NCBI GenBank assembly: GCA_902766095.1
Contig: CACXCN010000003.1
Span: 1-64,000, forward strand
Direction of reading: 5' to 3'
DNA length: 64,000 bases
Source: an uncultured Selenomonas sp.
GTDB lineage: Bacteria > Bacillota > Negativicutes > Selenomonadales > Selenomonadaceae
Shown: in pieces, positions 6,617 through 34,386 of the stretch
How positions within the stretch are numbered: position 1 is the stretch's first letter
Layout of the letters: each line of letters opens with the position of its first letter
The notes under the pieces: model-generated
What the model was told of the DNA's origin: nothing
Seen by the model: only the letters and a program-made list of their open reading frames with translations
The model's database searches: none
Made by a program: the position numbers and the translations under genes

Positions 6617-6943
6617 ACAGCATCCTCCCTGATCCATCTGTCTCTAGGCATACGAAAAGGCTGTCGCGGATGGCATGGATATATCCTGCGCATCGCACGA
6701 CAGCCTCTGGGCTGAGTGTTCTGTTGCACAAAGTGAGCATCTGCACCTATGCGCAGATGCCCGGCCTACCATTGACCATTCGCCATTGCCTGTACTGACT
6801 ATATTATTTATATCGTCAGTGTAGCGGGGATGATTAAGAATCCCCTTGATATATGTATTCGCCTCAGGACGGGAAAACCCTTTTTTGCAGGTCAGTCCGG
6901 GGGCATTTGTCATGGCGAATGGTAATCGGCAGTCTAGCTGCAG
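6617..6943. other. Gene-free stretch with hairpins and a 12-bp inverted repeat
   Basis: No convincing gene is seen in these 327 bases. The stretch holds three inverted repeats. AGGCTGTCG and CGACAGCCT (within 6657-6706) form a 9-bp stem with a long loop, followed on the minus strand by TTTTCG, like a weak terminator or attenuator before the gene at 4103. GCATCTGC and GCAGATGC (about 6738-6761) form an 8-bp stem. ACCATTCGCCAT (6775-6786) and ATGGCGAATGGT (6912-6923) form a 12-bp inverted repeat around about 125 bases. The first two could end transcription from the AAA/PD-(D/E)XK gene. Confidence 0.5.
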
Positions 6944-8623: not shown

Positions 8624-8649
8624 GGCCACTCCCCTCTATGGTTCACGCC

Positions 8650-13552: not shown

Positions 13553-14863
13553 TCATATATAGTGTACTGTACTATCTCCCTGAGCCATCATCTGGCAAAG
13601 CAGCCGGAAGCCCTCTAGCACATGCCTGACTGTTATCGTGGCGATACAATGCTGTTCGTCGGAGTGATTGCAGCCACTCAGCCGACCGCTCATCTGTCGG
13701 CAGTCATCGAGAGCCCGCTCGGCGAGCACTACGACGCTCGGGACTTGATAGGGCGCAAATGATACCGGGAAGCTCCACGGCTGCAGGGGTATCTCCCGTG
13801 GCCAGCAGTTCGGCTCGAGTACTGGCACGCCACAGGCCGCCGCTATATGAGCGGGACCTGTATCGTTGCCGATGTACATGCTGCATTCATTTATCACAGC
13901 CACCGTTTCAGTCAGCTTCAGCCGTCCCGTGAAATCGTACACCCGCCCCCTCGGCAGCGCCCCGGCCATATAGCTGGCGGCCCCGCTATCACCGGAGCCC
14001 CCCACCAATAGGAAGCGTGTCCTGGCCTGCTGGATGAGTATGCGCTGCAGCAGCTGGGCATAGCTCGCCACCGGCCATTGTTTGTTCCGCACCGTTCCGC
14101 CGACTGATACAGCTATCAGGCGGTACGCAGCGCCATTCTCTGACAGCAGCCCGGCATCACGCAGCATTTCCTGAGCCCGCTCGGTCGCAGCCTGGTCAGT
14201 CCAGGCCTCGATGGAGCGGTCGGCTACAGGGCTATAGAGCATAGCGTCAAATACTGCCAGATGCCGGTCGACGATATGGCACGCATCAGCGGCAATCGGC
14301 AACCAATCCGTAATGAAGCCATCCCACTCCTCCCTGCTCCCCCAGGGAACGCTCATGTAGTAGGGCGCCCGTGCCGCGATACGCCGCCGCGCCCCCATGA
14401 TGTAGGCCAAGAGATAAGCCTGCACGTATACAGAGCAGACAAAGGCCATATCGAAGCGTCGCTCAATCAGATGATGCGACGCGATGAACTGCACCATGAG
14501 CGGATAGGAATAGGCAAAATCATGCTCGAGAAAATCAGCCGGACCGACTGCCACTTCGTCCACATAGGGACAGGCTGCTGCCATATCCCGCACACGCTCA
14601 TCGCATATCAAGGTGATATGCGATACTGGATATAATCTGCGCAGCTCGCGTAGACAGGGCGATGTCAGGATAAAGTCGCCAATAGCGCTGTCGACAATGA
14701 TCGCTATGCGCGCTAGTCCACCATTGCCCGACTTCTGCAGCTGCCTTTTCTCTAGCATCGGTTCCAGGCGCCGCATTAGTTCAGCGGCAGAAAATTTTTC
14801 TGCCGTAAAAATTTCTCTGCCGTAATCTACTAAAATCTTTGCTACATCGTCCAAATAATTCAC
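13553..14863 (-). CDS. GT9 family heptosyltransferase-like glycosyltransferase
   Basis: A glycosyltransferase of the ADP-heptose:LPS heptosyltransferase family (GT9, GT-B fold). Marks are IAIIVDSAIGDFILTSPCLR at about 52-71, with the flexible-loop Asp, IAVSVGGTVRNKQWP, FLLVGGSGDSGAA, and SMYIGNDTGPAHIAAACGVP, the nucleotide-binding signature. A helical extension of about 50 residues precedes the usual start, as also in the neighbour at 14901. The family moves heptose from ADP-heptose; relatives can use other sugars. The start is uncertain: GTG 14863 lies only two bases after GGGGAG, and a TTG at 14854 has better spacing. It is in one operon with the genes on both sides and is a paralogue of the next gene. 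Confidence 0.85.
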   Translation of the reverse strand: MNYLDDVAKILVDYGREIFTAEKFSAAELMRRLEPMLEKRQLQKSGNGGLARIAIIVDSAIGDFILTSPCLRELRRLYPVSHITLICDERVRDMAAACPYVDEVAVGPADFLEHDFAYSYPLMVQFIASHHLIERRFDMAFVCSVYVQAYLLAYIMGARRRIAARAPYYMSVPWGSREEWDGFITDWLPIAADACHIVDRHLAVFDAMLYSPVADRSIEAWTDQAATERAQEMLRDAGLLSENGAAYRLIAVSVGGTVRNKQWPVASYAQLLQRILIQQARTRFLLVGGSGDSGAASYMAGALPRGRVYDFTGRLKLTETVAVINECSMYIGNDTGPAHIAAACGVPVLEPNCWPREIPLQPWSFPVSFAPYQVPSVVVLAERALDDCRQMSGRLSGCNHSDEQHCIATITVRHVLEGFRLLCQMMAQGDSTVHYI

Positions 14864-14900: not shown

Positions 14901-16190
14901 TCAGTCCCTCTGCAACTCGAGGCACTGGCTAGCCAGTGCCTCGAAGGCTGCGACTATCGCCTCGGGCGGTATCGTCGCTATGCAGTGTGCTACGGGCGAG
15001 ATGCAGCCGCCGTAGACGAGCACCTCGCGGCAGCGGCCTATGGCATGCTCAGGCCGCAGAGCGACATAGGGCGTCTGCCAGGGTGCGAAGCGGCAGACAC
15101 TGCTGAATATCGGTGAGAGCGCATTATCCTTGTCGAGCGGATCGCGTGAGAACTCGATCACCGGTTTCCTGGCTGCGGCGGCCATGTGCATGACACCGGT
15201 GTCATTGCCTATATACATGTCCGACTGGGCCACGACAGCCTCCGTCTCGGGCAGACTCAGCCGCCCGCAGAGGTCCAGCAGCACCATCCCCGGCAGTAGG
15301 CCAGCCAGCTCCTGTGCCTCCGCTTGCTCTGCCATACCACCTACTACTATGCAGGCTACATTGTAGCGACGGGCGATCTCGCGCAGGCCTATAGCCAGTT
15401 TCGGCAGCGGGTATTTTCGCGTAGCAGCTCCCGCCCCGATACCGACGATGATGCGCAGACTATCCCCGGGCAGATCGCTCAGCATCCGTTCTGCTTTCAC
15501 GGCAGCAGACGTACCATACCAGAGCTCGAGTGACTTATCCTCTGCCGGGCACCCCAAAGCCTCGAGCAGATAGAATATGCGCGCCACCTCGTGCGTATAT
15601 TGTCTGGGTGTCAGTACCGCCTGGGTCAGCAGGCACTCGGTCGGACTCGGCTCTGCCGGATAGCCATAGATCTCGAATACCCGGTCACCGAAATCAACGC
15701 GCTCGCGGGCTCCGCTCAGATACAGCAGGCATCGCCGATAGTCGCGGTACTCCGGCCCCCACATCTTCGCAATGGCCAGCGTGAAACGCCGTGGCCATAT
15801 CTGCTCCCGCAGCACCGGCTCCATGGCTGCGAGATCTCTGACATCGCATTCCCCGGCCAGCGGTATCAGCTCATTGATATACGGGCATTCCGCCACCAGC
15901 GGTATGAGCTGAGGCCGGACGAGCGCCGCTATGAAGGAGCGCGGATGCGAGCGCCGCAGCTCGCGCAGAAAGCCGCTCGTGAGCACCGTATCACCGATGG
16001 CATCGATGAGCAACACCAGGATTGACGGCACGGCCAGCTTATCAGTCGTCGCATTCCGATACCCGGCCGCTGCGAATTTCGGTTCCAGTCGTTCTTTCAT
16101 ATGCCGGCCATCTGCCATGCCACCAGTATGCAGTCGATTCAGCTCCGCATGTACAGACTGCTCCAAAGCTATCATTCTCGTATCACTCAT
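14901..16190 (-). CDS. GT9 family heptosyltransferase-like glycosyltransferase
   Basis: This second GT9 protein has 429 residues. It shows ILVLLIDAIGDTVLTSGFLR near 58-77, IIVGIGAGAATRKYPLPKLA for the donor-binding half, and DMYIGNDTGVMHMAAAARKP. The layout, including the N-terminal helical extension, matches its neighbour at 13553, so they are tandem duplicates that may act one after the other. The start is ATG 16190 with AAGAGA about 9 bases upstream. The 221-base gap before it contains no gene; a TATGAT-like -10 is present in it without a convincing -35. A heptose acceptor on a protein glycan rather than LPS is suggested only by the neighbouring autotransporter-type heptosyltransferase. 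Confidence 0.85.
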   Translation of the reverse strand: MSDTRMIALEQSVHAELNRLHTGGMADGRHMKERLEPKFAAAGYRNATTDKLAVPSILVLLIDAIGDTVLTSGFLRELRRSHPRSFIAALVRPQLIPLVAECPYINELIPLAGECDVRDLAAMEPVLREQIWPRRFTLAIAKMWGPEYRDYRRCLLYLSGARERVDFGDRVFEIYGYPAEPSPTECLLTQAVLTPRQYTHEVARIFYLLEALGCPAEDKSLELWYGTSAAVKAERMLSDLPGDSLRIIVGIGAGAATRKYPLPKLAIGLREIARRYNVACIVVGGMAEQAEAQELAGLLPGMVLLDLCGRLSLPETEAVVAQSDMYIGNDTGVMHMAAAARKPVIEFSRDPLDKDNALSPIFSSVCRFAPWQTPYVALRPEHAIGRCREVLVYGGCISPVAHCIATIPPEAIVAAFEALASQCLELQRD

Positions 16191-16411: not shown

Positions 16412-17527
16412 TCATCTCTGCAGTTCCTGCATAAAGGCAGCCTTATTCTCCTGCGGCGTTGTCGTCGGCCGGCCGAGATCAGCCCTGGCACCGATTGCCG
16501 ACTTGACCTCGAGGAATACCGTTCCGGCTGCGTCCTTGGCTGACTGCAGAGCCTCGGCCAGCTCGTTTTCATCCTTGGCCGAGTAGACGGCAGTGTAACC
16601 GCAGGCTCTGGCTATGCCCATCATATCGGCGTTGCCCGCTACCGTCGGCATACCGCCCACCGTCTCATGCGCGCCATTATTGATGAGCACATGGATGAGG
16701 TTCTGCGGCTTTTGCGCACCGATGACCGCCAAGGCCCCCATGTGCATGAGGGTCGCGCCATCGCCATCGATGCACCACACCCGCCGCGTGCTGTGCAGGG
16801 CGATGCCTAGCGCTATCGAGGAGCTATGCCCCATCGAGCCGACAGTCAGGAAATCATGGCCGTGTCCCTCGCCCCTAGCCTCGCGTATCTCGAAAAGCTC
16901 GCGGCTGGCCTTGCCAGTCGTCGATACGATGATATCATCGCCTGCGGCTGCGACAATCTGCCGCAGTATATCCTCACGCTTCATACTGTTGCCATTGCGG
17001 TACACGACTTTCTCGTCATACGTCAGCGCGCCTTTTTCTACGACGAAGGCCACATCCTTGCCCATCTGCAGTTCCTGCCGATAGCCTCGCATCACTTCAT
17101 CTAACTCTACGGATGTGGTGTCCTTCGTTATGACGAAGTTCCTGATATCCATGACATCGAGCAGTTTCCGTGTGACCTGCCCCTGATATACATGCTGCGG
17201 TTCATCCTTCACTCCCGGCTCGCCGCGCCAACCGATGACGAATATCATCGGTATGGCATAGACCTTATCGGAGAGCAGCGAGGCCACCGGATTTATGATA
17301 TTCCCCTCGCCGCTGTTCTGCATATAGACGACCGGCACACGTCCCGTAGCGAGATGATACCCCGCCGCCAGGGCTGCACAGTTGCCCTCGTTAGCCGCTA
17401 TGATATGATGATGCCTATCGATACCATAGGTATTCATCAGATAGTTACACAGCGGTTTCAACTGTGAGTCCGGTACGCCGGTGTAGAAATCGGCCCCGAG
17501 AATGTTTACGAATTCCTCAATCTTCAT
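16412..17527 (-). CDS. ppd: Phosphonopyruvate decarboxylase
   Basis: A thiamine-diphosphate enzyme of 371 residues that turns phosphonopyruvate into phosphonoacetaldehyde and CO2, the step that pulls the unfavourable PEP mutase reaction forward. It opens with FYTGVPDSQLKPL, typical of the family, and has HHIIAANEGNCAALAAGYHL with the catalytic Glu. The TDP/Mg motif begins GDGATLMHMGALAVIG and ends NN, near residues 255-283. The enzyme is cytoplasmic. Its partners PEP mutase and AEP transaminase are 7-11 kb away at 26165 and 24873, with unrelated glycosyltransferases between. The split of the pathway is unusual, because the three genes are normally adjacent. Start: ATG 17527 after AGGAGTAACGGCT. 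Confidence 0.92.
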   Translation of the reverse strand: MKIEEFVNILGADFYTGVPDSQLKPLCNYLMNTYGIDRHHHIIAANEGNCAALAAGYHLATGRVPVVYMQNSGEGNIINPVASLLSDKVYAIPMIFVIGWRGEPGVKDEPQHVYQGQVTRKLLDVMDIRNFVITKDTTSVELDEVMRGYRQELQMGKDVAFVVEKGALTYDEKVVYRNGNSMKREDILRQIVAAAGDDIIVSTTGKASRELFEIREARGEGHGHDFLTVGSMGHSSSIALGIALHSTRRVWCIDGDGATLMHMGALAVIGAQKPQNLIHVLINNGAHETVGGMPTVAGNADMMGIARACGYTAVYSAKDENELAEALQSAKDAAGTVFLEVKSAIGARADLGRPTTTPQENKAAFMQELQR

Positions 17528-19239: not shown

Positions 19240-20598
19240 TTATTTTTCCGCCAGGATGTACCACTGATAGGCGTCCAGGTCGAAGGGCTGCGCTCCATTC
19301 CGCAGGAATGGCAGCAATGCTTCGCGCAGACGCGTCTGCTCCTGATTCAGAGGAACCTTGTTACAGCCGAGTTCTCTCATATGGTACCCCGCCTGAGTCA
19401 CGAGCTCGACAGCCTCATTGCGGGCAAAGAACCGTAAATGTGTGCGATCTAATATGCCAGCACTCACATACTGCCAGTGGGCGCTGAGCATCTCCTCGAT
19501 GACGGATATATGTGATACATTCGGCAGACTGATGACGATGCGCCCGCCAGGACGCGTATACTCGTACATCCGCCGTACCATCGCCCAAGGATCGCGCAGG
19601 TGCTCCAGGATGTCTCCCATCATGACCGCTGAGAACCGGTTCCGCCACTCTGGCTTGTCAAGAGTCTCGATATCTATATTCTCCACCGGAGCAAATGTCG
19701 ATGCGATAGCCGCCGAATTCGGGTCGAGCTCGATGCCATGCAAGTCAGCTGCCGGATTCGCATCGTGCACATACATGAGGTCCATACCGCAGGCACAGCC
19801 GGCCACGAGCATAGAGAAGTCACTAGCGGTATAGTCCAGATGATTCAGCATATCGCGACGCATATGCAGCGAATATCCGGGCCTGATATGCCACTGCCGG
19901 GCCAACAACAGCTGCCCGTCCCTTTCGTCGGCAGCTATCTGGTCAGCATCCCTGGTCTCACCAGCCTGCACATAGGCCCCTGGGCAGCGCCGGACCGCCC
20001 AGCCCGCCTGCCAGAGACGGATAGCCAGATCCAGGAAGCCCTCCCGGTAGTCGCCATACAGCTCGCGCACTCCGCCGACGTCTTGCCAGGCGGAGCATCG
20101 CAGCAGCATGCAATGCCCCTCCAGGAATACTGTCGCCTCATCCGGCTCCACGGGCCGCGCCTCTGCGGCAGACTCGAGCTCGTTCAGATCGCGGCATTCG
20201 ATGCCTGACACATTGTTGTATACCCAATAGGCCGCACTGCACATGGCATACACTGCTCCTGCCTTGGCTCTCTGTCCCGCATACCCATCGAGCGCCTTGC
20301 GCAGGCGGCTCCATGTGACCTGCGGTATCAGCGTTCCTCCTCGCAGAACTAATATATTCTCTCCGTGTGCGCTGGCGATGCCCTCATTGAGCGAGGCCAT
20401 CCAGCCTTTTTTTTCGGTATGATGTATGAGCCGCACGGCCTCCACCGCTGCAAGCCAGTCTGCCGTACCATCTTTGGAGCCATCATCGACGACGATATAC
20501 TCTCCGGCTGCATCACCGATTGTCTCGCCGAGCACAGCCAGCGTATCCTGCAGCAGCGGTAGTTCATCGCGCGTTATTATGACTACGCTTGTATCCAT
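19240..20598 (-). CDS. Fusion: GT2 glycosyltransferase + SAM methyltransferase
   Basis: Residues 1-225 are a GT2 domain with SVVIITRDELPLLQDTL, IVVDDGSKDGTADW, and WMASLNEGIASAHGENILVL. Residues 255-452 are a class I methyltransferase: LVAGCACGMDLMYV in motif I position, HGIELDPNS as motif II, VMMGDILEHLRDPWAMV, and RPGGRIVISLPN. The fusion order is reversed compared with the methyltransferase-GT protein at 11990. Such proteins add and cap or tailor sugars. The start is well set by GGAGGTCGAAG before ATG 20598, and 20 bases separate it from the heptosyltransferase gene upstream. Substrate unknown. Confidence 0.82.
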   Translation of the reverse strand: MDTSVVIITRDELPLLQDTLAVLGETIGDAAGEYIVVDDGSKDGTADWLAAVEAVRLIHHTEKKGWMASLNEGIASAHGENILVLRGGTLIPQVTWSRLRKALDGYAGQRAKAGAVYAMCSAAYWVYNNVSGIECRDLNELESAAEARPVEPDEATVFLEGHCMLLRCSAWQDVGGVRELYGDYREGFLDLAIRLWQAGWAVRRCPGAYVQAGETRDADQIAADERDGQLLLARQWHIRPGYSLHMRRDMLNHLDYTASDFSMLVAGCACGMDLMYVHDANPAADLHGIELDPNSAAIASTFAPVENIDIETLDKPEWRNRFSAVMMGDILEHLRDPWAMVRRMYEYTRPGGRIVISLPNVSHISVIEEMLSAHWQYVSAGILDRTHLRFFARNEAVELVTQAGYHMRELGCNKVPLNQEQTRLREALLPFLRNGAQPFDLDAYQWYILAEK

Positions 20599-20618: not shown

Positions 20619-21848
20619 TTAGTTTTTTGCTATATCTTCCCGCAGTTGCTCCACCCGCTGCATTACCATCCTTGGCGTTATCAGCTTCGAACACTCAAGC
20701 TCTTTATCCGTCCCAGCATGGCGCGGGCAGAATGATTTGAGGAATTCCTCGTCCAGGGCGTTGAAACAGCTGCCGCAGGACAATGGGTTCCAGACGCGAT
20801 AGGGTGTAGCAAATTCGTACCAGGGCCACGAGAAGCCGCAAATCAGCACGACCGGACAGCCGGCCATATGCGCGAGGTGCGAGAGGCCGCTGCCGAGGCC
20901 GATAAAGAACTCGGCATGCGCCAGCATATCGGCACGATCAGTCAGTGGACGTGCTCCCGTGAAGTCCTCGGCCCCCTCAGGCATATCTACCTTATATGGC
21001 CCGCTGCTCTGTGTCCTTTCCTTATCGATGCAGAGCACCCGATACCCCATTTTTTTGAGCTCTCCTACTACTATCTCCCAGCCGCCCGGATATTGCCAGC
21101 ACTTATTCACGCCGCTGGCCTGCACGCCGATGCATACATAGGGCTCCGCAAGCCCGACAGGCCGCGGCCCGGCCGGCCATCTGATCGGATGTGCCGGACG
21201 GTCGAGACCGCAGATGAGCTGCCCCACGCGCTCCATCGGCACCTGACGGCCATCTATGGGGAGATAGTTCGGCGCATCGATGCCGAAACCGAAGTAGAAT
21301 GTCGCATAGGTATCGTCATCGATATGCTCCTGCAGCGGCAGATCCGGGTAAACGCGTTTCACCAAACCATGCAGATGATTATGCATGAAGCAGGTAGCCC
21401 GGATGCCATATCGCTGCTGCATAGCAGCGATATACGGCAGGAATACCACCGTATCACCGATGGCACCGCTCACGTTGATGAAATGCACCTTCGTCCCTGG
21501 CTCGAGTGTGAATACGTGCGCGAGCACCAGCTCGCCCGCTTGCCAGACCTCGACTTGCCAGTGGATGTAGTACTTCTCGACCGAGATGAGCAGTACATCA
21601 GAGGCATCCTCATCGAGGAATACCTTGCATGAATCATAGTCGGATATACGCACATGATAGTCTCCCTGCGGCACCTGCAGCCGCAGACCGCAGTTGAAAT
21701 CAAGCCGGAGCCCTGGCACCGCTGTCTCACCGGTCACATCGCCGAGCATAGCCTCGAGCCGTGCGAAGAAAACCATCTGCTCCTGGAAGAATCGCTGAAT
21801 GTCGGTATGTATATACTCGCGGCACGAGAAATAGCGCACTTCTTGCAC
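20619..21848 (-). CDS. Autotransporter-type O-heptosyltransferase (BAHT family, TibC/AAH-like)
   Basis: The family (TIGR04414 type, known from TibC and AAH) uses ADP-heptose to glycosylate serines of protein substrates in the cytoplasm. Seen here are SGAIGDTVVFLPYIAAMQQR at 127-146, GVQASGVNKCWQYPGGWEIV at 241-260, and IGLGSGLSHLAHMAGCPVVL. A four-cysteine set at residues 358, 361, 374 and 386 (CGSC...C...C) matches the iron-binding finger described for this family. An N-terminal region of about 110 residues with beta-strand character corresponds to the extra domain of TibC. The start is GTG 21848, behind AGGAGGTAGTAAGCCC. No autotransporter gene is in the window, so the protein target here must be elsewhere or different, for instance flagellin. 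Confidence 0.85.
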   Translation of the reverse strand: MQEVRYFSCREYIHTDIQRFFQEQMVFFARLEAMLGDVTGETAVPGLRLDFNCGLRLQVPQGDYHVRISDYDSCKVFLDEDASDVLLISVEKYYIHWQVEVWQAGELVLAHVFTLEPGTKVHFINVSGAIGDTVVFLPYIAAMQQRYGIRATCFMHNHLHGLVKRVYPDLPLQEHIDDDTYATFYFGFGIDAPNYLPIDGRQVPMERVGQLICGLDRPAHPIRWPAGPRPVGLAEPYVCIGVQASGVNKCWQYPGGWEIVVGELKKMGYRVLCIDKERTQSSGPYKVDMPEGAEDFTGARPLTDRADMLAHAEFFIGLGSGLSHLAHMAGCPVVLICGFSWPWYEFATPYRVWNPLSCGSCFNALDEEFLKSFCPRHAGTDKELECSKLITPRMVMQRVEQLREDIAKN

Positions 21849-21855
21849 GGGCTTA

Positions 21856-22410
21856 CTACCTCCTATGATGATCTTTGCTTATTTCCTCGGCTATATCAGA
21901 GCCATACTCCTGGAGGAATTTCTGCCTGTCAGCCTCATATCCCTCTACTGACGGCTCTACACTATTGTGCATACATAGCGGTCTCGTCTGAGGTAGTACC
22001 ACGGTTTGGAAATGCTGTCGCCGGAACTCGTAGGCCTGAGAGACATCGTAGAAATGCCATCCCCGAAAGAGATCTGTGCGCCAAGGCATATCGTACTGCG
22101 TAGCGAGCAACAATCCATCGAGAGCTGCTGCATTCTGGCTGCTTTTCCGGTCACATCTATATACATAGTTCCGGAATTCCCCCGTAATCTTATCCCGTAT
22201 CGAACCGATTTTCTCCCCCTCCCACCAGATACCATTGGCTGGCATATTGCGAGCTCCGACTACACCAGCCAGGCCATACTCAGGATGGCGACGAAACTCC
22301 CGCACGAGCCTCACGAGGAACTCCCTATCTGTTATCCAGACATCCTGATGCAGGTATATCTTGTACTTTGCATCTGAGCACTCCATAGCCTGCTGGTAGC
22401 CAGCCGTCAT
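21856..22410 (-). CDS. GT2-type (PF13712-like) glycosyltransferase, C-terminal piece of a split gene
   Basis: This 184-residue frame carries most of a PF13712-type GT2 domain: MTAGYQQAMECSDAKYKIY, LHQDVWITDREFLVRLV (the DxD-like site), GVVGARNMPANGIWWEG, FRGWHFYDVSQAYEF and a late MHN. It lacks the N-terminal 60-80 residues that bind the nucleotide. Its ATG overlaps the stop of the preceding frame as ATGA (22410-22407), so the two pieces could be translated in coupled fashion. The family match of this piece differs from that of the first piece, so the locus looks like a fusion of two genes out of frame rather than a simple point frameshift. Whether the product is active is doubtful. Confidence 0.65.
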   Translation of the reverse strand: MTAGYQQAMECSDAKYKIYLHQDVWITDREFLVRLVREFRRHPEYGLAGVVGARNMPANGIWWEGEKIGSIRDKITGEFRNYVYRCDRKSSQNAAALDGLLLATQYDMPWRTDLFRGWHFYDVSQAYEFRRQHFQTVVLPQTRPLCMHNSVEPSVEGYEADRQKFLQEYGSDIAEEISKDHHRR

Positions 22411-22646
22411 CGACTCTTGGGAAAACCAGCATTTTGGCGATTGAATATTACTTTTATATCATCAGCCCGTTCCTGCTCCTCGCGCAGCCATTGCGCTGAG
22501 CCATCTGTCGAGGCATTGTCTACTATGATCAGCTCATAGCTGCCCGCGGCCGTATGCCGCCTGATGCTGGCTATACATACCTGCAGGTATGCGAGGGTAT
22601 TGTAGCTTAGTATGACTATGCTGGTCAAATGCTCACAGCCTTTCAT
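22407..22646 (-). CDS. GT2 glycosyltransferase N-terminal fragment
   Basis: The 79-residue frame holds only the start of a standard GT2 (PF00535) domain: LTSIVILSYNTLAYLQVCIA, LIIVDNASTDGSAQWL and VIFNRQNAGFPK, where it ends in SR-stop. In full-length relatives NxGFPK is followed by GCNQGI and the DxD strand. Here the other reading frame takes over with a different GT family. No Shine-Dalgarno site is seen before ATG 22646, unlike nearly every other gene in the window. It is therefore probably a remnant, although the ATGA overlap would allow coupled translation with the next piece. Confidence 0.6.
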   Translation of the reverse strand: MKGCEHLTSIVILSYNTLAYLQVCIASIRRHTAAGSYELIIVDNASTDGSAQWLREEQERADDIKVIFNRQNAGFPKSR

Positions 22647-22670
22647 ATAAAGTGTGAAATCTGCTATAAT
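22642..22670 (+). promoter_or_regulatory. Sigma-A-type promoter for the plus-strand glycosyltransferase
   Basis: TTCATA (22642-22647) and a perfect TATAAT (22665-22670) are separated by 17 bases, about 55 bases before the ATG at 22727. The -35 matches 4 of 6 consensus bases. The site lies in the 80-base gap between divergent genes. Confidence 0.6.
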
Positions 22671-23958: not shown

Positions 23959-24861
23959 TTACCCGCTTATCCCTCTGATTCTCTGTCCATACTCGATGTA
24001 GGATATGTCCGGACTCATCTCTGTACCGAGATGAGCGCAGCCGCCGGCCTCTCCGCGGACGAATTTATGATAGTCGCCGTAGGTACGAGTTAGCACTTCA
24101 TCATAGCCTGCAGGCACCGGGACCTCTATCATTTCAAATGGCATGTATTCCACTTCCTGGAAAGCCTCACGTGGCATAGCTTTCCAGGGATTTTCTGTGC
24201 CCTGCATCTCGTAGCCGGTGAAGTTCACCTGCCTTGATTTTCCGAAATGATTTGCCAGTAATGTTTCTATATCCGCAAATTTATCAACTGCTTTTTCAGT
24301 CATAAAATGCCTCAGCGCACTTTCACTCAGCCTGTTTTGTCCCTTAGCAATCATGTTGTTCATTGCATCTGGCTGAGTCATCGCTATGAATAGCTCAACG
24401 ACAGCGCTGATAAGTCCCCGTCCCTCCTGTACTCCGTCGGGGGCATCATCCAGAGGGAATATGTCGATGAACATACCTTGATGGTACTCGAGTGGCAGAT
24501 CATGCTCCCAAGCCGTGGTACGGCTGTCGCGTATTTTCGAATACAGCAAAAACCGCCCTGTATGATGCCAATTATCCCAGTAAAAAGGTTCCTTAATTTC
24601 CTCTATAGCAATCTTACAGAAACGCTCATAATCCGGCCGCAACATGAATACGTCAACATCGTCATCCCAAGGAACGAAACCATGATGCCGCACGGCGCCG
24701 AGCAGCGTACCATAGGCGGAAAACCAGCGGATATCGTGGCGCCGACATATATCGTCGAGCACCGTGAGCATTTCTATTTCCTTTTCCCAGATACGTTTGC
24801 GAGTCACCGAGACGAGGAACCCGCTCCGTATCTCATCCCTATCTATATCCTTGATATACAT
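23959..24861 (-). CDS. LicD family phosphotransferase
   Basis: LicD proteins move a phospho-substituent, classically phosphocholine from CDP-choline, onto glycan sugars. Here the donor is probably CMP-AEP, because the AEP pathway and a cytidylyltransferase are in the same cluster. The 300-residue chain has the nucleotidyltransferase-fold core: WFSAYGTLLGAVRHHGFVPW followed by DDDVDVFMLRPDYERF, then GMFIDIFPLDDAPDG. The DDDVDVF triad is the metal site. ATG 24861 is preferred to ATG 24867, since AAGGAG lies 7 bases before the former and only one base before the latter. It starts 12 bases after the AEP transaminase gene, in one operon with it. Acceptor sugar unknown. Confidence 0.85.
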   Translation of the reverse strand: MYIKDIDRDEIRSGFLVSVTRKRIWEKEIEMLTVLDDICRRHDIRWFSAYGTLLGAVRHHGFVPWDDDVDVFMLRPDYERFCKIAIEEIKEPFYWDNWHHTGRFLLYSKIRDSRTTAWEHDLPLEYHQGMFIDIFPLDDAPDGVQEGRGLISAVVELFIAMTQPDAMNNMIAKGQNRLSESALRHFMTEKAVDKFADIETLLANHFGKSRQVNFTGYEMQGTENPWKAMPREAFQEVEYMPFEMIEVPVPAGYDEVLTRTYGDYHKFVRGEAGGCAHLGTEMSPDISYIEYGQRIRGISG

Positions 24862-24872
24862 ACTCATGCTCC

Positions 24873-25991
24873 TTAATGTACCGGCACTGAAACACCAATA
24901 TGCTCTAATGCCTCGCGGAAGATGACAAAGAATCTCTCTATATCAGCCGCTGTGATAGCGCCGAGAGCGCAGAGACGGAACGTGCCGAGCTGCTGCATCT
25001 TGCCAGGATAAATGGTGAAGCCGCGGGCATAGCAGTAGTCGTGCACCTGCTCGAAATCCCAATGCGCATCATCTGGGTAGCGCACTGCGGCCACGAGGCC
25101 GGACTGATACTCGCGCGGCAATACCTCCCGAAATCCGAGCTCTGCGAGGCCCTCGTGTATCGCTTCCATCGTCTGCTCATGGCGCTGCCATTTGCCCGCC
25201 TCACCCTCAGCGAGGTATTCCTGCAGTGCCTGTCTGGCAGCATATATGGCCTGAACGGGCGGCGTAAAGCGCATCTGCCCGCTGCGCTCGAATGACTCAT
25301 ACTGCAGGTAGATATTGCTGTAGTACGAGTGGCGCGGAAAGGCTTGCGAGGCCCGGACATAGTCGGTCCGACCTATGACGAAGGACAGCCCCGTCATGGC
25401 CTGGATGCCCTTCTGCGCCGAGCTCATGCAGAAGTCGAGATTATCCCGCTCGATGTCGATGGGCCGCATCGCGAGCGTGGATATCGTATCGGCCACCATC
25501 CAGGCGCCATGCTCGTGAGCCAGCCTGCCAATCTCGCGAATGGGATTCAAGAGGCCAGTGCCGGTCTCCTGATGCGTGATGTAGACAGCAGAGATATCTT
25601 CATCGGCCTCTAGTGCCTGTTCTACTTTGGCAAGGTCGGCCGGCCTGTCTATAGGCAGTTCCAGCTCCACATAGGGTACACTGCAGGCCTCAGCTATCTC
25701 GACCGCCCGCGATGTGTAGGATCCATTATTGAGGAAAAGTATCTTCTTTCCCGCAGGCACGAGCGAGGTCACGCAAGCCTCGACCATGAGCGTACCGGAG
25801 CCGCAGAAGAGCACGCAGCTGTATTTCTCCGGCGCAGCATGCACGATTTGCAGCAGGCCCTGTCCGAGCTCGCGCATCACCTTGCCGAATTCAGCCTCGC
25901 GGGGACAGATATCCGGCACGACCTGGGCCATCTTCACCGTGTCAGTCGTCGTGGCCGGCCCCGGGTTCAGCAGTATCTTTCTTTCTATCAT
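24873..25991 (-). CDS. phnW: 2-aminoethylphosphonate--pyruvate transaminase
   Basis: A class V PLP aminotransferase of 372 residues that interconverts phosphonoacetaldehyde + alanine and AEP + pyruvate. In this setting, with PEP mutase and phosphonopyruvate decarboxylase, it runs towards AEP. It opens KILLNPGPATTTDTVKMAQV, has FCGSGTLMVEACVTSLVP, YITHQETGTGLLNPI and SSAQKGIQAMTGLSFVIGR, where the Lys is the PLP Schiff-base residue. The enzyme is cytoplasmic. It follows the 50-residue frame by only 2 bases, so it is probably translated in coupled fashion from it. No phnX (phosphonatase) is present, which argues against a breakdown pathway. Confidence 0.92.
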   Translation of the reverse strand: MIERKILLNPGPATTTDTVKMAQVVPDICPREAEFGKVMRELGQGLLQIVHAAPEKYSCVLFCGSGTLMVEACVTSLVPAGKKILFLNNGSYTSRAVEIAEACSVPYVELELPIDRPADLAKVEQALEADEDISAVYITHQETGTGLLNPIREIGRLAHEHGAWMVADTISTLAMRPIDIERDNLDFCMSSAQKGIQAMTGLSFVIGRTDYVRASQAFPRHSYYSNIYLQYESFERSGQMRFTPPVQAIYAARQALQEYLAEGEAGKWQRHEQTMEAIHEGLAELGFREVLPREYQSGLVAAVRYPDDAHWDFEQVHDYCYARGFTIYPGKMQQLGTFRLCALGAITAADIERFFVIFREALEHIGVSVPVH

Positions 25992-25993
25992 TT

Positions 25994-26146
25994 TTAGTAA
26001 TTGCCTTTCTGGCGAGTGAACACCACATGATAAATGTCAAAGCCATCCATGCGCTTGAGCGCCGACAGCACTGCTTTCTTATCCTGCCAGTCCACGTCTG
26101 CCAGCTGATTCTGGCGCTTGTTCCAGATTTCCTTCCATTCGGCCAT
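25994..26146 (-). CDS. Small 50-residue protein between PEP mutase and AEP transaminase genes
   Basis: A short frame with a strong site, AGGAGGAGATTCA, before ATG 26146. It ends two bases before phnW and begins 18 bases after the PEP mutase stop, so it fills the gap between these two genes. The product starts MAEWKEIWNKRQNQLADVDW, is rich in Trp and Lys, and contains LKRMDGFDIYHVV. This resembles the extreme N-terminus of some class I methyltransferases (xxEWxxIWNxR ... LxxLDGFD), so it may be a relic of one. It may also be a real small protein kept for coupling. No signal peptide or membrane segment. Confidence 0.7.
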   Translation of the reverse strand: MAEWKEIWNKRQNQLADVDWQDKKAVLSALKRMDGFDIYHVVFTRQKGNY

Positions 26147-26164
26147 TGAATCTCCTCCTATCCG

Positions 26165-27463
26165 TCAGAGCTCATCGATGAGCGTGATGATATCCCGTAT
26201 CGGCATGAGATACTTCGCTGCCTCGAGTGCCCTATGATGCTCGAGGATGCTCCTGGCCGTCCGCTCCATGGCTGGAAAGGCACTGCGCGTGAGCTGATTC
26301 GCGTAGATGACTATCTTCGCACCATGCTGCGCGAGCTCCTGCTCGGTGTACTGGGAGAATGACGTCGGCACTACTACGAGCGGTATGTCGGGATAGGATT
26401 TATGGAAGTACTTGCAGAATTCGAATAGGTCCTGCGGCTCCTTCTGACGCGAATGAATCATGATGCCATCGGCGCCGGCCTTCACATATGCCTCCGCCCG
26501 CCGCAGGGCATCGCCGAGCCCCTTCTCGAGTATGAGGCTCTCGATGCGCGCGATAATCATGAAATCATCGGTGCGTTGCACGGCCTTGCCGGCCGCTATC
26601 TTCTGACAGAAATGCTCGATGGTGTCCTGCGTCTGCTTGACCTCGGTGCCGAAAAGCGAGTTCTTCTTGAGCCCCGTCTTGTCCTCGAGGATGACAGCCG
26701 AGACGCCCATGCGCTCGAGTGTGCGCACATTATAGACGAAGTGCTCGATAAGACCGCCGGTATCAGCATCGAGTATGATGGGCTTCGTCGTCACGTCGAG
26801 CACGTCGTCTATCGTGCGTATGCGTGAGGACATATCGACAAGCTCGATATCCGGCTTGCCCTTCGCCGTAGAATCACAAAGGCTCGAAATCCACATCGCA
26901 TCGAACTGATCGAGACCGCCGTCATGCTCGACAACCGTCTTCTCAGCTATAAGTCCTGTGAGACCGCTATGCACCTCGAGTGTCTTGACGACCGGCAGCA
27001 TATCGATGAGCTTGCGCAGCCGCCCGCGGCGGAACTCCGGCATGGCCAGTTTCTCGCGCATGCGATCGTCTATCTTCTTTACCTCATCATTATAAGTATA
27101 GGGCACCTCGATGAGCTGCCCGCCATATTTTGCCAGACAGGCCACGACATTGTCGCGGATGGCCCGCTCGGGGCCGTTCTGCCAGTTATCGCCATGTACG
27201 ACATAATCTGGCCGCAGCTCATCGATAATCCCGTCATACATAATCTGCTGCTGCACCACGACCTCATCTACTTCTGGTTCCTGCCGCAGCAGCTCGATGC
27301 GTTCCTCCAGCGATATGGTCGGAAACCGATTGTAGCGCACCATCTCACTATCGCAGAGCACACCTGCCACCACGCGGCCGAGCTTGGCGGCCTCGCGCAG
27401 TATATGGCGATGTCCCTCATGAATCACATCGGTGCAAAAGCACGCATAGACTGTCTTTGCCAT
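26165..27463 (-). CDS. pepM: Phosphoenolpyruvate mutase with N-terminal cytidylyltransferase-like domain
   Basis: PEP mutase makes the C-P bond: phosphoenolpyruvate to phosphonopyruvate. The C-terminal part (about residues 155-425) is an isocitrate-lyase-fold barrel with the mutase signature EDKTGLKKNS (near 260-269), distinguishing it from lyases. LDADTGG binds the metal. The first 135 residues are a nucleotidyltransferase domain with CFCTDVIHEGHRHILREAAK (HEGH), like the TagD/glycerol-3-phosphate cytidylyltransferase group. Such fusions are known in phosphonate loci; the extra domain may activate a phosphonate with CTP. The start at ATG 27463 has AGGTGAAGAGG in front; an upstream GTG at 27472 is less likely. 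Length 432. First gene of the AEP block after the PntC-like gene. Confidence 0.92.
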   Translation of the reverse strand: MAKTVYACFCTDVIHEGHRHILREAAKLGRVVAGVLCDSEMVRYNRFPTISLEERIELLRQEPEVDEVVVQQQIMYDGIIDELRPDYVVHGDNWQNGPERAIRDNVVACLAKYGGQLIEVPYTYNDEVKKIDDRMREKLAMPEFRRGRLRKLIDMLPVVKTLEVHSGLTGLIAEKTVVEHDGGLDQFDAMWISSLCDSTAKGKPDIELVDMSSRIRTIDDVLDVTTKPIILDADTGGLIEHFVYNVRTLERMGVSAVILEDKTGLKKNSLFGTEVKQTQDTIEHFCQKIAAGKAVQRTDDFMIIARIESLILEKGLGDALRRAEAYVKAGADGIMIHSRQKEPQDLFEFCKYFHKSYPDIPLVVVPTSFSQYTEQELAQHGAKIVIYANQLTRSAFPAMERTARSILEHHRALEAAKYLMPIRDIITLIDEL

Positions 27464-27495
27464 CCTCTTCACCTACCATTGCCATTTATATGCCA

Positions 27496-28191
27496 TTATC
27501 TATAGGAGCTATCCAAAGCCTGCAGCTCGGCCAGCGTATCTATCTCGACTACGTCTGTTTTGCTGCACTGTCTGATATATATGGAAAACTCCTCTGGAAA
27601 ATACTCCAGTGCCACTTGGTCCCAGTAGAGCTGCCAATTCCGCTTATCGGCAAACAGCTTCTCCGTACGCTCCGCGAGCCGCTGGCCGTCGGCTGCGGTC
27701 CAATACGATATGCCGACCATCTGCTGGCAGTTCTCGCCGCCCACCGCTATTTTCTTTATCCTATTATATGAATCGGTAAAAAAGCACCAGTCATCAGTCT
27801 TTTCTACCGGTATCGCGAGATAATTCGAACGCGACTGCTCGGCCTCTATGAGCTCGCCGCACCGCAGGAGCAGATCGCTCTCGATGATATAGGCATTCTG
27901 TACCCGCTCCCCGGCCACATAGATGGAGGATATATTGTTCGCCTGCTCGTAGTAAGGATTGTCGAGCACTGTCACCATGGGATATTTCTGCTGCAGCACC
28001 GCGAATTTCTCTCTGCGATAGCCGCAGACTATGTATATCTCGCGAATGCCCGCCGCTACTACCGCATCGAGGAGTGTCTCGATAATGCGCCTGCCGTTCA
28101 CCGGCACGAGCGGCTTCGGCAGTTTATCCGTCACCGGTGCCATGCGTGTGCCTTTGCCTGCCGCCAAGAATATCGCGCGTTCTACCTTCAT
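27496..28191 (-). CDS. CTP:phosphonate/phosphocholine cytidylyltransferase (PntC/LicC-like)
   Basis: A sugar-nucleotidyltransferase-fold protein of 231 residues. The N-terminal LAAGKGTRMAPVTDKLPKPL is the CTP-binding loop. LIEAEQ and IVCGYRREKF follow the LicC pattern, and there is a NPYYEQANNISSIYVA strand as in LicC-type enzymes that activate phosphocholine or AEP. With the full AEP route and a LicD gene in the same operon, the likely reaction is CTP + AEP to CMP-AEP + PPi. LicC proper would need choline genes (licA/licB), which are absent. The start is fixed by AGGAGGTAATCGG before ATG 28191. Confidence is high for the family and moderate for the substrate. Confidence 0.85.
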   Translation of the reverse strand: MKVERAIFLAAGKGTRMAPVTDKLPKPLVPVNGRRIIETLLDAVVAAGIREIYIVCGYRREKFAVLQQKYPMVTVLDNPYYEQANNISSIYVAGERVQNAYIIESDLLLRCGELIEAEQSRSNYLAIPVEKTDDWCFFTDSYNRIKKIAVGGENCQQMVGISYWTAADGQRLAERTEKLFADKRNWQLYWDQVALEYFPEEFSIYIRQCSKTDVVEIDTLAELQALDSSYR

Positions 28192-28291: not shown

Positions 28292-30445
28292 TCAATCACT
28301 CCCCTGTATCCAGCGGATGCCCTGGTCATGGACGTGGCGCGCGATATAGCCCGCCAGATGCATGTAGTAATCGCGCCGCTCCGGCGTATCAGTGTCGCCA
28401 TAGCTGCCATCTCGGTTCAATATGCGACATTCGGCTCCATCTAGGTTCACCGTACCGTCATTGCGCAACGGCTCGCGGCTTTGCAGTATCATCTGGTCGC
28501 GCTCTGTACGCAGGCATAGGGTATACTTCTGCCCTGGATATATGACATAGCTGGCCGTGAAATCACGCTTCTGCCCGCCCAAGGCCGCTGGCAGGTTGCC
28601 ATCGGCCGAGTGTCCCTCGAGTCCGGCATTGTGCAGCGTGATATCGTAGAAATCCACCGTGCTCGTGAGCTCGTCGCTCACGCGGCCACGGGCGGGGATG
28701 CCGCTGCCCCGCAGCATTAGCGCTGCATGATTCGAGTAATCGCTCACCAGCAGCGGCACCGGCGTAGCAGTGCCGAGACGGTATATGCCAGTACCGTGGT
28801 CGGAGTATAGCTGCACGACATATTCCGACTCGCTGTAGTTCGCCTCGATATATTCGTAGAGGACTTCGAGATTCCTATCCATCATCCGGATATAGTGATC
28901 CACCCCCTCCACATAGTAGGGAATGTTTCCCTCGATATTTACGCTGGCCTTGTATTCCTGCGTGGCCAGCCTATCTCCCAGCGGCAGATGTGCCTGCGTG
29001 GCCATTCCGACCCGATAGTCCGGCATAGGCCATGAATGCGGGTCATCGATATGCAGGAAAATGAACTGGTCGCACTCCGATAGCGCCTCGAGCTGCACGA
29101 TGGTCCTGCTTACTCCCTCATAGGCCTTGTTGTCGTATGACTTTATTAGCAGCCGATCATAGCCCCGCGTCACGCCGTCATAGACATTGCCGCCATCGCT
29201 CATGAGATTCATGCAGTAGTAGCCAGCCTCGTGCATGCGCTCAGCCAGAGTCCTTATCTCCGGGCCTATCCCGACCGCACAGCGCTCATTGAATACCTGC
29301 GACTCGGCCGGATAGAGACCTGTCTCGAGCGTCGCCAGCGACGGGAAGGTATACTCACTGACCGAATAGTGCTTATCGAATACAATGCCTTTTTGGAAGA
29401 ATCTGCAGGTATTCGGCATGAGCTCGGCAAAGCGCGGCCCGACGTGCTCCCAGCATAGAGCATCGGTCAGTATGTTCAGGATGACTTTTCTGCGTTTGGG
29501 ACTATGCCCCAGCCGTATCGGCTGGCCGACCACCATATCCTGTTCCGAGGATATGCGTGTGTCTTTGTCGATACGATAGTAGCTGTAGTTCCAGCGCCCC
29601 GGCAGCGTTATTTCCTTTTGCTGTCCGTCGAAGTCAAACTTCAACCTCTGGCCAGCCGCTGTGGTCGCCACGGGCAGTATGCAGATCCCCTCTGGATGCA
29701 ATTCCTCTGTCCGCGTGGTATGCGAGCGCTGCAAATCGAATATCGTTCCCACGCAGGTGTTCTCGATAAATTCCTCGTCATGGCGCAATTTCTTCACCAC
29801 ATGCTCCATGTTCAACGAGGTAGTGGTACCGTGCGGGTATATGCCGACGAAATACGACTCCCGGTCGTCCTGCCAGACGGCGGGCAGATACTCGCCGACG
29901 AATATATCCTCGCGGAAAGCGGCGCCCTGCTCTGCCATATAGGCCCTGCGTGTGGCTATTGGTGCATAGTTCGCTATGCCACTGCCGAGGGAAAACATGT
30001 CGAACACTTGTTGCAGCTGCGCCTGCTCCATCGGCAGGTCCACATCCCCCGGACAGAATCTATGGATCAGCCCCGCAAAGTATGCGGCGTAATCGTAGCG
30101 ATGCATCTGCCGGTAGCAGGCGGTCAGTACCCTCCAGACAACCAGATTTACCCTGCGCCGGGCAAAGGCCTGCAGACCGTACTCCAGCGCCACCTCATAG
30201 TTATCATGTGCCAGTGCATACAGGCTATAGAATATGGCGAAATGCTCCGTATGCGGGCTGAGCTCGCGATACCTGATAATCAAGCGCAGATAGTCATCAT
30301 CGTACTGCTCCTGAGCTACCATTTGCTGCAGCTTCAGGAATAGTGACTGCAGCTCGGTAGTGTTTCCAGCTACACCATGCGTCACTGTGCCTAGTTGGTT
30401 CAATCCTATTCTCAAAATAAGGTTCCTATCTGTCAGTCCTACCAT
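28292..30445 (-). CDS. Alkaline-phosphatase-superfamily transferase/hydrolase with Thr nucleophile and TPR-like N-terminus
   Basis: A 717-residue soluble protein. Residues 30-155 are helical, TPR-like. Residues 318-620 show the alkaline phosphatase/sulfatase fold: VILNILTDALCWEHV with metal Asp328, YTFPSLATLETGLYP at 365-379, IFLHIDDPHSW near 462-471, and LYSDHGTGIY with Asp549-His550. In sulfatases the CxPSR motif carries the nucleophile Cys; here it reads T-F-P-S-L, with Thr366 in the nucleophile place and no Arg. Thr is used by phosphoethanolamine and phosphoglycerol transferases (EptA, LtaS), so a phospho-transfer or phosphodiesterase role on the glycan is more likely than sulfate ester cleavage. 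Unlike EptA and LtaS it has no membrane segments. ATG 30445 has GAGG only two bases away, so the start is not certain. Confidence 0.72.
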   Translation of the reverse strand: MVGLTDRNLILRIGLNQLGTVTHGVAGNTTELQSLFLKLQQMVAQEQYDDDYLRLIIRYRELSPHTEHFAIFYSLYALAHDNYEVALEYGLQAFARRRVNLVVWRVLTACYRQMHRYDYAAYFAGLIHRFCPGDVDLPMEQAQLQQVFDMFSLGSGIANYAPIATRRAYMAEQGAAFREDIFVGEYLPAVWQDDRESYFVGIYPHGTTTSLNMEHVVKKLRHDEEFIENTCVGTIFDLQRSHTTRTEELHPEGICILPVATTAAGQRLKFDFDGQQKEITLPGRWNYSYYRIDKDTRISSEQDMVVGQPIRLGHSPKRRKVILNILTDALCWEHVGPRFAELMPNTCRFFQKGIVFDKHYSVSEYTFPSLATLETGLYPAESQVFNERCAVGIGPEIRTLAERMHEAGYYCMNLMSDGGNVYDGVTRGYDRLLIKSYDNKAYEGVSRTIVQLEALSECDQFIFLHIDDPHSWPMPDYRVGMATQAHLPLGDRLATQEYKASVNIEGNIPYYVEGVDHYIRMMDRNLEVLYEYIEANYSESEYVVQLYSDHGTGIYRLGTATPVPLLVSDYSNHAALMLRGSGIPARGRVSDELTSTVDFYDITLHNAGLEGHSADGNLPAALGGQKRDFTASYVIYPGQKYTLCLRTERDQMILQSREPLRNDGTVNLDGAECRILNRDGSYGDTDTPERRDYYMHLAGYIARHVHDQGIRWIQGSD

Positions 30446-33162: not shown

Positions 33163-34386
33163 TTAAACGATGTCTAGTGACCGCATAGCCTTAGCCGTTT
33201 CCAACTGCAGTGCATCATATAGCGAGCTGCTCTCCGGCTGCGCCTTGGCTACATGCAGCAGCAGCACTGCCTCCTGAATCTTTTCTCTGGTGTAACCGTT
33301 CGACACGAGACAGCGCCGTATACACTCAAGCAGAGCCTGACGCAGCAACACTCCAACGGCCTCATCTCCCTGTGGCACTACTATGGCTGCATCGCGCCAG
33401 CGTGAGGAATGCCATAGCGACAAGCGATACAGATACGTGAATTCCTGATTCATATCACTCCAGATGGGATTCTGCTCGCTACAAGTGCTGAGCCAGCCTG
33501 CCGTCATGCTCAACGCTGCCGAGTACTCTCCCCGACGGATGAGGCCATAGAGCTGCCATACCGGCATGGCCAGACGCCGTTGCCAAAGCAGTTTCGTGCG
33601 TCGCTGCCATCCGGTTACCCATCGTTGATGGCGCTTCCCCATGAGCTTGGTCCTCGGCGGCCCTAATAGGATTCCGGCTGCCTTCTCGATAATAGGATTC
33701 CATATATCAGGCGGCGCACACCTTTCCCAGGCATGACAGCCAAAGGGACGCCAGCCGGTTTTAAGGCGCCGATATACATGTTGCACGTCGTCCTGCAACG
33801 AGAATTCGAGCGCCTCATACAGCGGAGCCACGCGGAAATCAATGTCCCGCCGCATGCCGCAGTAGGCGAAGAAAGAATCCTCACAGGGAAGAAACACGTC
33901 CTTCAGGGGATGACCATCTGGCAAAGTTGCAAACAATCCTGCTGCCCGCTGGCAGGCTGCTACTCGGCGCAACGAAAAGCCACCATTACCGACCTTGGTA
34001 CCGAGCAACAGCCATGGCTCCTCTCCTCGCACCGGTGCCCCTATATAATCGTAGCCCAGCTCACAGAACTCCAGCAAGCGGTCAGCAAAAACGAAGCCAT
34101 CGGTCTGGTAAAGCAGTATGTACTCATAATCGCGGAAGCGCTCGTAAAAGAGTGGCTGCAGCATGAGCAGACTATACGACATGACACTGGTGAACCACTC
34201 GTCGTCGAAGTGCTCGACCGCGAAGCCCTCTCCAAGTTCCCCAAGGTCCAGCTGCAACGACTGCGGAGCCACGAATATGCGCGGATAGCGGCCAAGCACT
34301 CTTTGCAGCTGGCACAGCGACACCCGTTCCGTTTTCTTGAGTTTATTCGTGTATATGGGGACTACCACTGCCACCTTTTTCTTCAT
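33163..34386 (-). CDS. DUF5672 domain protein, probable glycosyltransferase
   Basis: The first 230 residues match the DUF5672 pattern: VAVVVPIYTNKLKKTERVSL, YEYILLYQTDGFVFADRLLE, ELGYDYIGAPVRGE, GNGGFSLRRVAAC, EDSFFAYC, and FGCHAWER. The domain has the layout of a GT-A glycosyltransferase: a strand, then QTDGFVF in the DxD place and a GxxFLR-like acceptor site. It is common in glycan clusters, but its chemistry is not established. The rest (about 250-407) is helical with no recognised domain. The start has AAAGGTTGG 7 bases upstream. It follows the TPR gene by 21 bases, so it is in the operon that reads from the GT41 genes. Confidence 0.7.
   Translation of the reverse strand: MKKKVAVVVPIYTNKLKKTERVSLCQLQRVLGRYPRIFVAPQSLQLDLGELGEGFAVEHFDDEWFTSVMSYSLLMLQPLFYERFRDYEYILLYQTDGFVFADRLLEFCELGYDYIGAPVRGEEPWLLLGTKVGNGGFSLRRVAACQRAAGLFATLPDGHPLKDVFLPCEDSFFAYCGMRRDIDFRVAPLYEALEFSLQDDVQHVYRRLKTGWRPFGCHAWERCAPPDIWNPIIEKAAGILLGPPRTKLMGKRHQRWVTGWQRRTKLLWQRRLAMPVWQLYGLIRRGEYSAALSMTAGWLSTCSEQNPIWSDMNQEFTYLYRLSLWHSSRWRDAAIVVPQGDEAVGVLLRQALLECIRRCLVSNGYTREKIQEAVLLLHVAKAQPESSSLYDALQLETAKAMRSLDIV

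Follow-up and report, generated by a model that had tools for sequence, protein, structure and literature searches.

A TibC-like glycosyltransferase encoded in a flagellin-led island and its probable part in flagellar glycosylation

A TibC-like gene in an island that begins at flagellin

The stretch of DNA analysed here (the window, 64,000 nucleotides) carries on its minus strand an open reading frame of 409 aa (20619-21848), with a GTG start behind AGGAGG, whose product is, as its preliminary description had recognised, a relative of the autotransporter-type heptosyltransferases (BAHT). The protein scored 331.8 bits against the TIGR04414 model hepto_Aah_TibC (curated cut-off 200) and 55.6 bits against the N-terminal TibC_1st domain PF21129 (cut-off 27), and the GT9 domain was also matched. 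The gene lies in a minus-strand island that extends from the flagellin gene fliC (47831) to about position 751 and that holds, besides the features given here, a methyltransferase gene, further glycosyltransferase genes between the TibC-like and the GT9 genes, and two more on the plus strand.

46506-47831, minus strand: flagellin FliC, with which the island begins and which is the strongest acceptor candidate (PF00669 130.6 bits, PF00700 80.6 bits)
43588-46326, minus strand: GT2 glycosyltransferase directly after fliC (Pfam; same position in relatives G236, locus L134, and G002, locus L074)
42101-43672, minus strand: GT2 glycosyltransferase with a weak TPR match (Pfam)
38444-41959, minus strand: GT41 glycosyltransferase of 1171 aa, candidate flagellin-initiating enzyme (PF13844 266 bits)
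36967-38466, minus strand: GT41 glycosyltransferase
35483-37009, minus strand: GT41 glycosyltransferase
34408-35391, minus strand: TPR protein, with homologues beside clade-B genes (defined below) in relatives
33163-34386, minus strand: DUF5672 protein
28292-30445, minus strand: sulfatase-family protein
26165-27472, minus strand: phosphoenolpyruvate mutase (TIGR02320 400.5 bits, cut-off 319.55)
24873-25991, minus strand: 2-aminoethylphosphonate aminotransferase (TIGR03301 422.9 bits, cut-off 360.8)
23959-24867, minus strand: LicD-family transferase, possibly for phosphonate attachment (PF04991 138 bits)
21856-22410, minus strand: GT2 (Glyco_tranf_2_5), C-terminal part of a split gene, 7 bases upstream of the TibC-like gene
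20619-21848, minus strand: TibC-like (TIGR04414) glycosyltransferase, clade B (TIGR04414, PF21129, GT9, alignment with TibC)
19240-20598, minus strand: GT2-methyltransferase fusion, whose gene follows the TibC-like gene after 20 bases
16412-17527, minus strand: phosphonopyruvate decarboxylase (TIGR03297 469.8 bits, cut-off 312.5)
14901-16190, minus strand: GT9 enzyme, below the LPS heptosyltransferase cut-offs; a homologue adjoins clade-B genes in several relatives
13553-14863, minus strand: GT9 enzyme, below the LPS heptosyltransferase cut-offs
4103-6637, minus strand: 844-aa protein with no Pfam or NCBIfam match, recurrent at the island end
2680-4050, minus strand: cytidylyltransferase-Gfo/Idh/MocA fusion, which also recurs in this end position (84-89% identity in three genomes of genus g16)
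751-2088, minus strand: CDP-glycerol glycerophosphotransferase family

Both GT9 proteins, already named as such from the sequence, proved to be real members of that family in profile searches. A GT41 match (E 1e-15) was present in 94 of the 95 flagellated genomes of the family surveyed below and in none of the six without a flagellin match, which marks such islands as flagellar. The island also contains a 2-aminoethylphosphonate pathway (16412-17527 and 23959-28191: phosphoenolpyruvate mutase, phosphonopyruvate decarboxylase, aminoethylphosphonate aminotransferase, a nucleotidyltransferase and LicD), so that the glycan may carry aminoethylphosphonate.

Some further features of the island deserve mention. 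The split GT2 gene (21856-22649) runs over two frames, the stop codon of its N-terminal half (TGA) overlapping the start codon (ATG) of the C-terminal one; the halves may be a coupled pair, or the split may come from a frameshift or an error in the sequence. Between the glycosyltransferase genes and the 844-aa gene there is a gene with AAA-ATPase_like and PDDEXK_9 domains (6944-8629). The cytidylyltransferase-oxidoreductase fusion that adjoins the 844-aa gene is 79-89% identical at five loci of relatives (L053, L062, L132, L136, L139) and less so elsewhere.

Fold, active site and iron finger

The sequence of the solved TibC structure (4rap) matched the window protein at E 1e-64, aligned over residues 46-404. 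A monomer model built from nine input sequences (the window protein and eight relatives; pLDDT 78) was aligned to TibC over residues 31-407 and superimposed on it with Z 33 at 2.7 A over 361 residues, with 32-33% identity in the structural alignment. The nearest chain other than TibC was a GT9 enzyme (Z 19.7), and above Z 12 only TibC and GT-B folds appeared, along with three rows from NDH complexes (Z 14) that we take as a resemblance of common arrangement. Residues 358-387 of the model, the finger region, have pLDDT below 50, so the iron finger is read from the sequence. There, the four cysteines pointed out in the preliminary description (358, 361, 374 and 386) align exactly with the TibC iron ligands C339, C342, C358 and C370, and the finger appears to be intact.

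Roles of the TibC residues compared here (Asp110, Lys230, Arg286, Trp305 and the iron cysteines) are as given in the TibC paper (PMC4358343), which also describes Trp305 as binding the heptose and an Ala mutant at this position as having lost, or largely lost, activity. Most of the catalytic residues are kept in the window protein: by alignment, Asp132, Lys249 and Arg305 correspond to the catalytic base Asp110 and to the donor residues Lys230 and Arg286. Thr226 of TibC is replaced by Ser245, as in 58 of the 61 other clade-B rows, and the hydrophobic pair at the tip of the thumb (Phe265, Val266 in TibC) by Pro-Tyr, clade A being itself variable at both positions. Trp305 is His324 here, a replacement that none of the other aligned rows shows (121 in all, TibC not counted); Trp stands at this position in 59/59 clade-A rows (TibC apart) and in 61/61 other clade-B rows. 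Because the codon is CAC and lies three base changes away from TGG, His324 is no single-base error. His is the ordinary state of GT9 enzymes at this place (DTGxxH motif), and both GT9 proteins of the window have this motif with His at the corresponding position. From the sequence, the enzyme may therefore still bind heptose or may have a changed donor.

The loop between the second and the third finger cysteine has 12 residues in the window protein. It has 15 in 58 of the 59 clade-A rows (TibC apart; 14 in the remaining one) and 11-13 in 60 of the 62 clade-B rows, one of the other two having 14 and one being cut. Variation of a different kind was seen in six clade-B rows, where Glu replaces the catalytic Asp110 (L045, L059 with two genes, L065, L066 and L070, all of them island-linked loci), and in the clade-A rows L109 and L114, both of which have lost the donor residues, with N at the position of Asp110 and G at that of Lys230.

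Two clades of TibC-like enzymes

We surveyed 101 genomes of the window's family (taken as Selenomonadaceae) and found a TIGR04414 match over the cut-off in 39 of them. A tree of 78 rows (quick method, with SH-aLRT support only) placed 28 with TibC (clade A) and 50 with the window protein (clade B), the branch between them having a support of 100. With further rows added from 250 genomes searched across the class, 60 rows fell with TibC and 62 with the window protein; FastTree wrote a support of 1.0 for this branch, and the rerooted enlarged tree showed 1.0 and 0.64. A 108-aa row (L040_G085_5234) was dropped from the trees, and the enlarged one leaves out weak matches as well as any row that has stops or is no longer than 340 aa. 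L125 (G290) and the broken genes found in G119 and G152 do not appear in it. The genome G085 (L039, L040, L150) alone has 11 TIGR04414 matches, several in tandem and with fragments at contig ends.

Clade B was seen almost only in the window's family. TIGR04414 matches at E 1e-20 were found in 26 genomes outside it, 23 of which are in the enlarged tree (not with every copy), and all their rows belong to clade A. The remaining three are G290 (495 bits) and the genomes with broken genes, G119 and G152. The pieces in G119, from another family of the class (L143), form a broken clade-B-like gene in two frames. They share 51% and 34% of their residues with the window protein, and clade B may therefore extend beyond the window's family. 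Judged by these sequences, clade B is a sister clade of the autotransporter heptosyltransferases.

The two clades differ in their company. Strand-loop-strand repeats over the cut-off, the only matches counted for this feature, occurred in 9 of the 101 family genomes, every one of which belongs to the 16 that have clade A (p 5e-9), and in none of the 22 genomes with clade B only. Weaker matches were present in two clade-B-only genomes, G089 and G095, and 15/101 genomes had one at E 0.01. Autotransporter barrels, for which any match at E 0.001 was counted, are far more widespread (70 of the 101 genomes, 68 over the cut-off) and show a weak association with clade A (p 0.02) as well as with clade B (p 0.04, 27/32 vs 43/69); five clade-B genomes, that of the window included, have none. 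Genome G045, with a partial gene, is outside these association counts. Flagellin was found in 32/32 clade-B genomes and in 63/69 others (p 0.17), an association that falls short of significance because 95 of the 101 genomes are flagellated; as a genome-level test flagellation was thus uninformative.

Search for a surface target

The preliminary description had remarked on the lack of an autotransporter within 64 kb and had proposed a search of the genome for strand-loop-strand autotransporters. Its remark held up. No Pfam autotransporter match occurred among the 40 window proteins scanned, and the genome, a draft of 94 contigs that is 99.8% complete, gave no match to the autotransporter barrel PF03797, to the YadA anchor PF03895 or, up to E 10, to the strand-loop-strand repeat TIGR04415. 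At the level of these three models a distant autotransporter partner is ruled out; a wholly new type of secretion would be invisible to them. Since Trp305 and a strand-loop-strand autotransporter partner were both looked for and neither was found, we regard the window protein, with its N-terminal barrel, its four finger cysteines and its equivalents of Asp110, Lys230 and Arg286, as a clade-B TibC-like enzyme and not as a BAHT proper. The earlier picture of a BAHT that simply lacks its neighbour is somewhat off the mark, as the enzyme is part of a separate branch whose occurrence does not follow that of strand-loop-strand autotransporters.

Flagellin had also been called the only clear surface protein, which is correct for the window but not for the whole genome. 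What the genome-wide search for a distant autotransporter turned up instead was a two-partner-secretion (TPS) exoprotein of 3,695 aa. Its gene lies on contig C16 (L130, G000:C16:8000-24500) immediately behind a second flagellin gene and is accompanied by that of its ShlB transporter. The exoprotein is rich in Thr (14%) and Ser (9%) and has YDG and MBG_2 domains; its TPS domain reached 73.4 bits (cut-off 33.5), or 72 bits on the N-terminal 400 residues alone, and a scan of the whole frame listed YDG and MBG_2 but not TPS. A weaker TPS match (45.4 bits, in a 413-aa frame) lies on contig C11. With any match at E 0.001 counted, TPS domains are present in 74 of the 101 family genomes, 27/32 with clade B vs 47/69 others (p 0.10), and TPS exoproteins as the general partner of clade B were set aside for want of a significant association.

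The island in relatives

To see how often clade-B genes reside in such islands, 28 island proteins were used as queries (match of at least 80 bits) against the surroundings of over-cut-off TIGR04414 sites, namely 40 stretches (one of clade A), 17 of clade A, 10 more and G028:C203 (L176), sub-cut-off fragments being left out. An island gene was found on the same stretch at 21 of the 50 clade-B loci vs 2 of the 18 clade-A loci (p 0.02) and vs 1 of 20 evenly spaced 20-kb control stretches of G236 (p 0.003). These controls come from one genome only because G236 is a single contig, and the sole positive among them (L157) lies beside that genome's own island. For flagellin or GT41 alone the figures were 15/50 clade-B loci vs 1/18 of clade A (p 0.05) and 1/20 control stretches (p 0.03). 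Counted by genome, and here with G045 included, clade-B loci were fetched from 32, of which 20 have one or more that is linked to an island. Residence in the island follows lineage, with 8 changes on the tree vs a mean of 17 after shuffling and 0/300 shuffles reaching 8, in part because near-identical genomes share one locus.

In G236, fliC (80% identical) is followed by two GT2 genes, two GT41 genes, the TPR and DUF5672 genes, a GT2 and a TibC-like gene; then come two GT9 genes, a second TibC-like gene, further glycosyltransferase genes, a third TibC-like gene, GT41, GT9, the 844-aa gene, the fusion and the CDP-glycerol transferase. This is the plan of the window's island with three TibC-like genes. 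G236, G247, G268, G283 and G286, of a related genus, each have three clade-B matches and keep this plan as far as their fetched stretches reach; G236 is the only one whose stretch takes in fliC, all but G286 include GT41, and the third copy of G268 is an edge fragment.

No island gene was found within the stretch fetched at the other 29 clade-B loci, which include undecided cases, as at least nine of these stretches are shorter than 10 kb. One of the loci without an island gene, L176, was assigned to clade B by its nearest row (83% identical). Some sit among clear housekeeping genes, e.g. gyrA, pyrD and thrS (names read from the sequence), so that flagellin is not the whole story of clade B. 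As to a partner gene common to such stray loci, one pattern was noticed: at three g6 loci (L038, L042 and L047) a small secreted protein is encoded directly downstream of the clade-B gene, with a BsuPI domain in L047 and close similarity in the other two; the gene upstream at L038 looks like thrS. This small protein is a possible other acceptor of clade B.

Donor, acceptor and competing readings

Most of the genes for a heptose donor were located on contig C79 of the same genome, which encodes an ADP-heptose pathway with a heptose kinase (365.6 bits, cut-off 345), adenylyltransferase, 7-phosphatase and 6-epimerase, together with a second kinase-like gene (309 bits, below the cut-off of 345). 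On the acceptor side there is a precedent in ETEC H10407, an E. coli strain carrying TibC, whose flagellin is heptosylated at 14 Ser/Thr by an enzyme that the authors were unable to name (PMC5000012). TibC modifies synthetic peptides (PMC4358343). For the flagellin of Selenomonas sputigena, on the other side, rhamnose-linked O-glycans are described, not heptose (PMC13339959).

As no classical adhesin target was found in the genome and the gene is part of a flagellin-led island, the enzyme probably helps to decorate the flagellum. We consider it likely, on balance, that it is a heptosyltransferase of flagellin glycosylation acting on flagellin itself or on a flagellin-bound sugar. ADP-heptose from the cell's own pathway would be the most likely donor. 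The transfer would take place in the cytoplasm, and the heptose would go directly onto Ser/Thr of flagellin or onto a sugar put there before by a GT41 or GT2 enzyme; other enzymes of the island would then extend the chain and perhaps add aminoethylphosphonate. By position flagellin is the first candidate for the acceptor, while the three GT41 enzymes encoded near fliC are at least as good candidates for the initiation of the glycan. Of the heptose-initiated protein glycan envisaged earlier, a part in the flagellin glycan is supported by the recurrent synteny of the island; initiation by heptose is a conjecture, the GT41 genes being at least equal candidates for that step. What speaks against the flagellin reading is that 29 of the 50 clade-B loci show no island gene in their stretches, that linkage to flagellin or GT41 alone sets clade B apart from clade A at p 0.05, that clade B does not track flagellin significantly across genomes and is weakly associated with autotransporter barrels, that the heptose-binding Trp is His324 here, that the S. 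sputigena glycan is rhamnose-linked, and that the genome also encodes the TPS exoprotein.

Among the readings that compete with this one, a changed donor is suggested by His324, unique among the 121 rows and not explicable by a single-base error: with His in place of Trp305, as in the DTGxxH motif of both window GT9 proteins, and with many other glycosyltransferases encoded in the same island, the enzyme might not be a heptosyltransferase at all but use a different nucleotide sugar to extend a glycan of flagellin or of the cell surface. We think this unlikely, as the donor site is otherwise conserved, with Asp132, Lys249 and Arg305 and with the Ser245 that most of clade B shares; in any case Trp is retained in the other clade-B rows, those from islands included, so that the clade as a whole is unchanged. 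Quite improbable, in our judgement, is the reading that the acceptor is some further surface protein, not a classical autotransporter; the foremost candidate would be the C16 exoprotein, which a TibC-like ring could handle in the manner of TibA, a known acceptor that is a beta-helix (PMC4358343). The exoprotein's TPS domain, by which it would itself be a beta-helix, its ShlB partner, its Thr and Ser content, the weaker C11 match and the TPS matches in 27 of the 32 clade-B genomes are what speaks for this; but that association is not significant, five clade-B genomes have no TPS match (G040, G049, G083, G085 and G093, the last 99% complete), the TPS genes and the enzyme are on different contigs, and the genome has no TIGR04415 repeat. 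A role in LPS or capsule synthesis, with the gene in the island by chance, seems very improbable, even though the GT9 relatives are LPS heptosyltransferases and the island also has genes for a CDP-glycerol phosphotransferase and LicD. Two GT9 genes nearer to the LPS heptosyltransferase models adjoin the heptose pathway on C79 (171 and 125 bits, under the cut-offs), the island begins at fliC in the window, as does the same plan in G236, and the window protein has the N-terminal barrel of TibC and the iron-finger cysteines.

For flagellar heptosyltransfer, the reading that we prefer for the window enzyme, a broader version can be put forward tentatively for the clade, namely that clade B, a branch so far unrecognised, parted from the autotransporters and now consists of O-heptosyltransferases that modify flagellin (and, where the gene lies at a stray locus, other surface proteins), with a re-cut iron finger that would read a different acceptor.

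Comparison with known systems

With the BAHT enzymes (TibC, PDB 4rap and 4rb4, and AAH) the window protein shares the fold over its whole length, the N-terminal barrel, the four finger cysteines, the catalytic Asp and the donor Lys and Arg. It differs from them in falling into a separate clade, in its 32-33% identity to TibC, in a finger loop of 12 instead of 15 residues and in having His for Trp305, and its genome is without an autotransporter or strand-loop-strand match. For this genome, the name that NCBI gives to TIGR04414, 'autotransporter strand-loop-strand O-heptosyltransferase', points to a substrate that was not found. The LPS heptosyltransferases WaaC and WaaF (GT9) have in common with it the GT-B fold and a His at the position of TibC Trp305, but they match the window protein only from residue 119 on, without the N-terminal barrel, and with Z 17-20 vs 33 for TibC.

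Known flagellin glycosylation islands with GT41 and GT2 enzymes likewise have a glycosyltransferase cluster behind the flagellin gene; islands of the window's type differ from them in holding one to three TibC-like enzymes. In searches of an open-access library we noticed no flagellar TibC-like enzyme. If clade B heptosylates flagellin, it would provide an enzyme for a modification that has been reported in the FliC of ETEC without a settled enzyme (PMC5000012), and it would be a natural comparison for how the iron finger of TibC sets the choice of acceptor.
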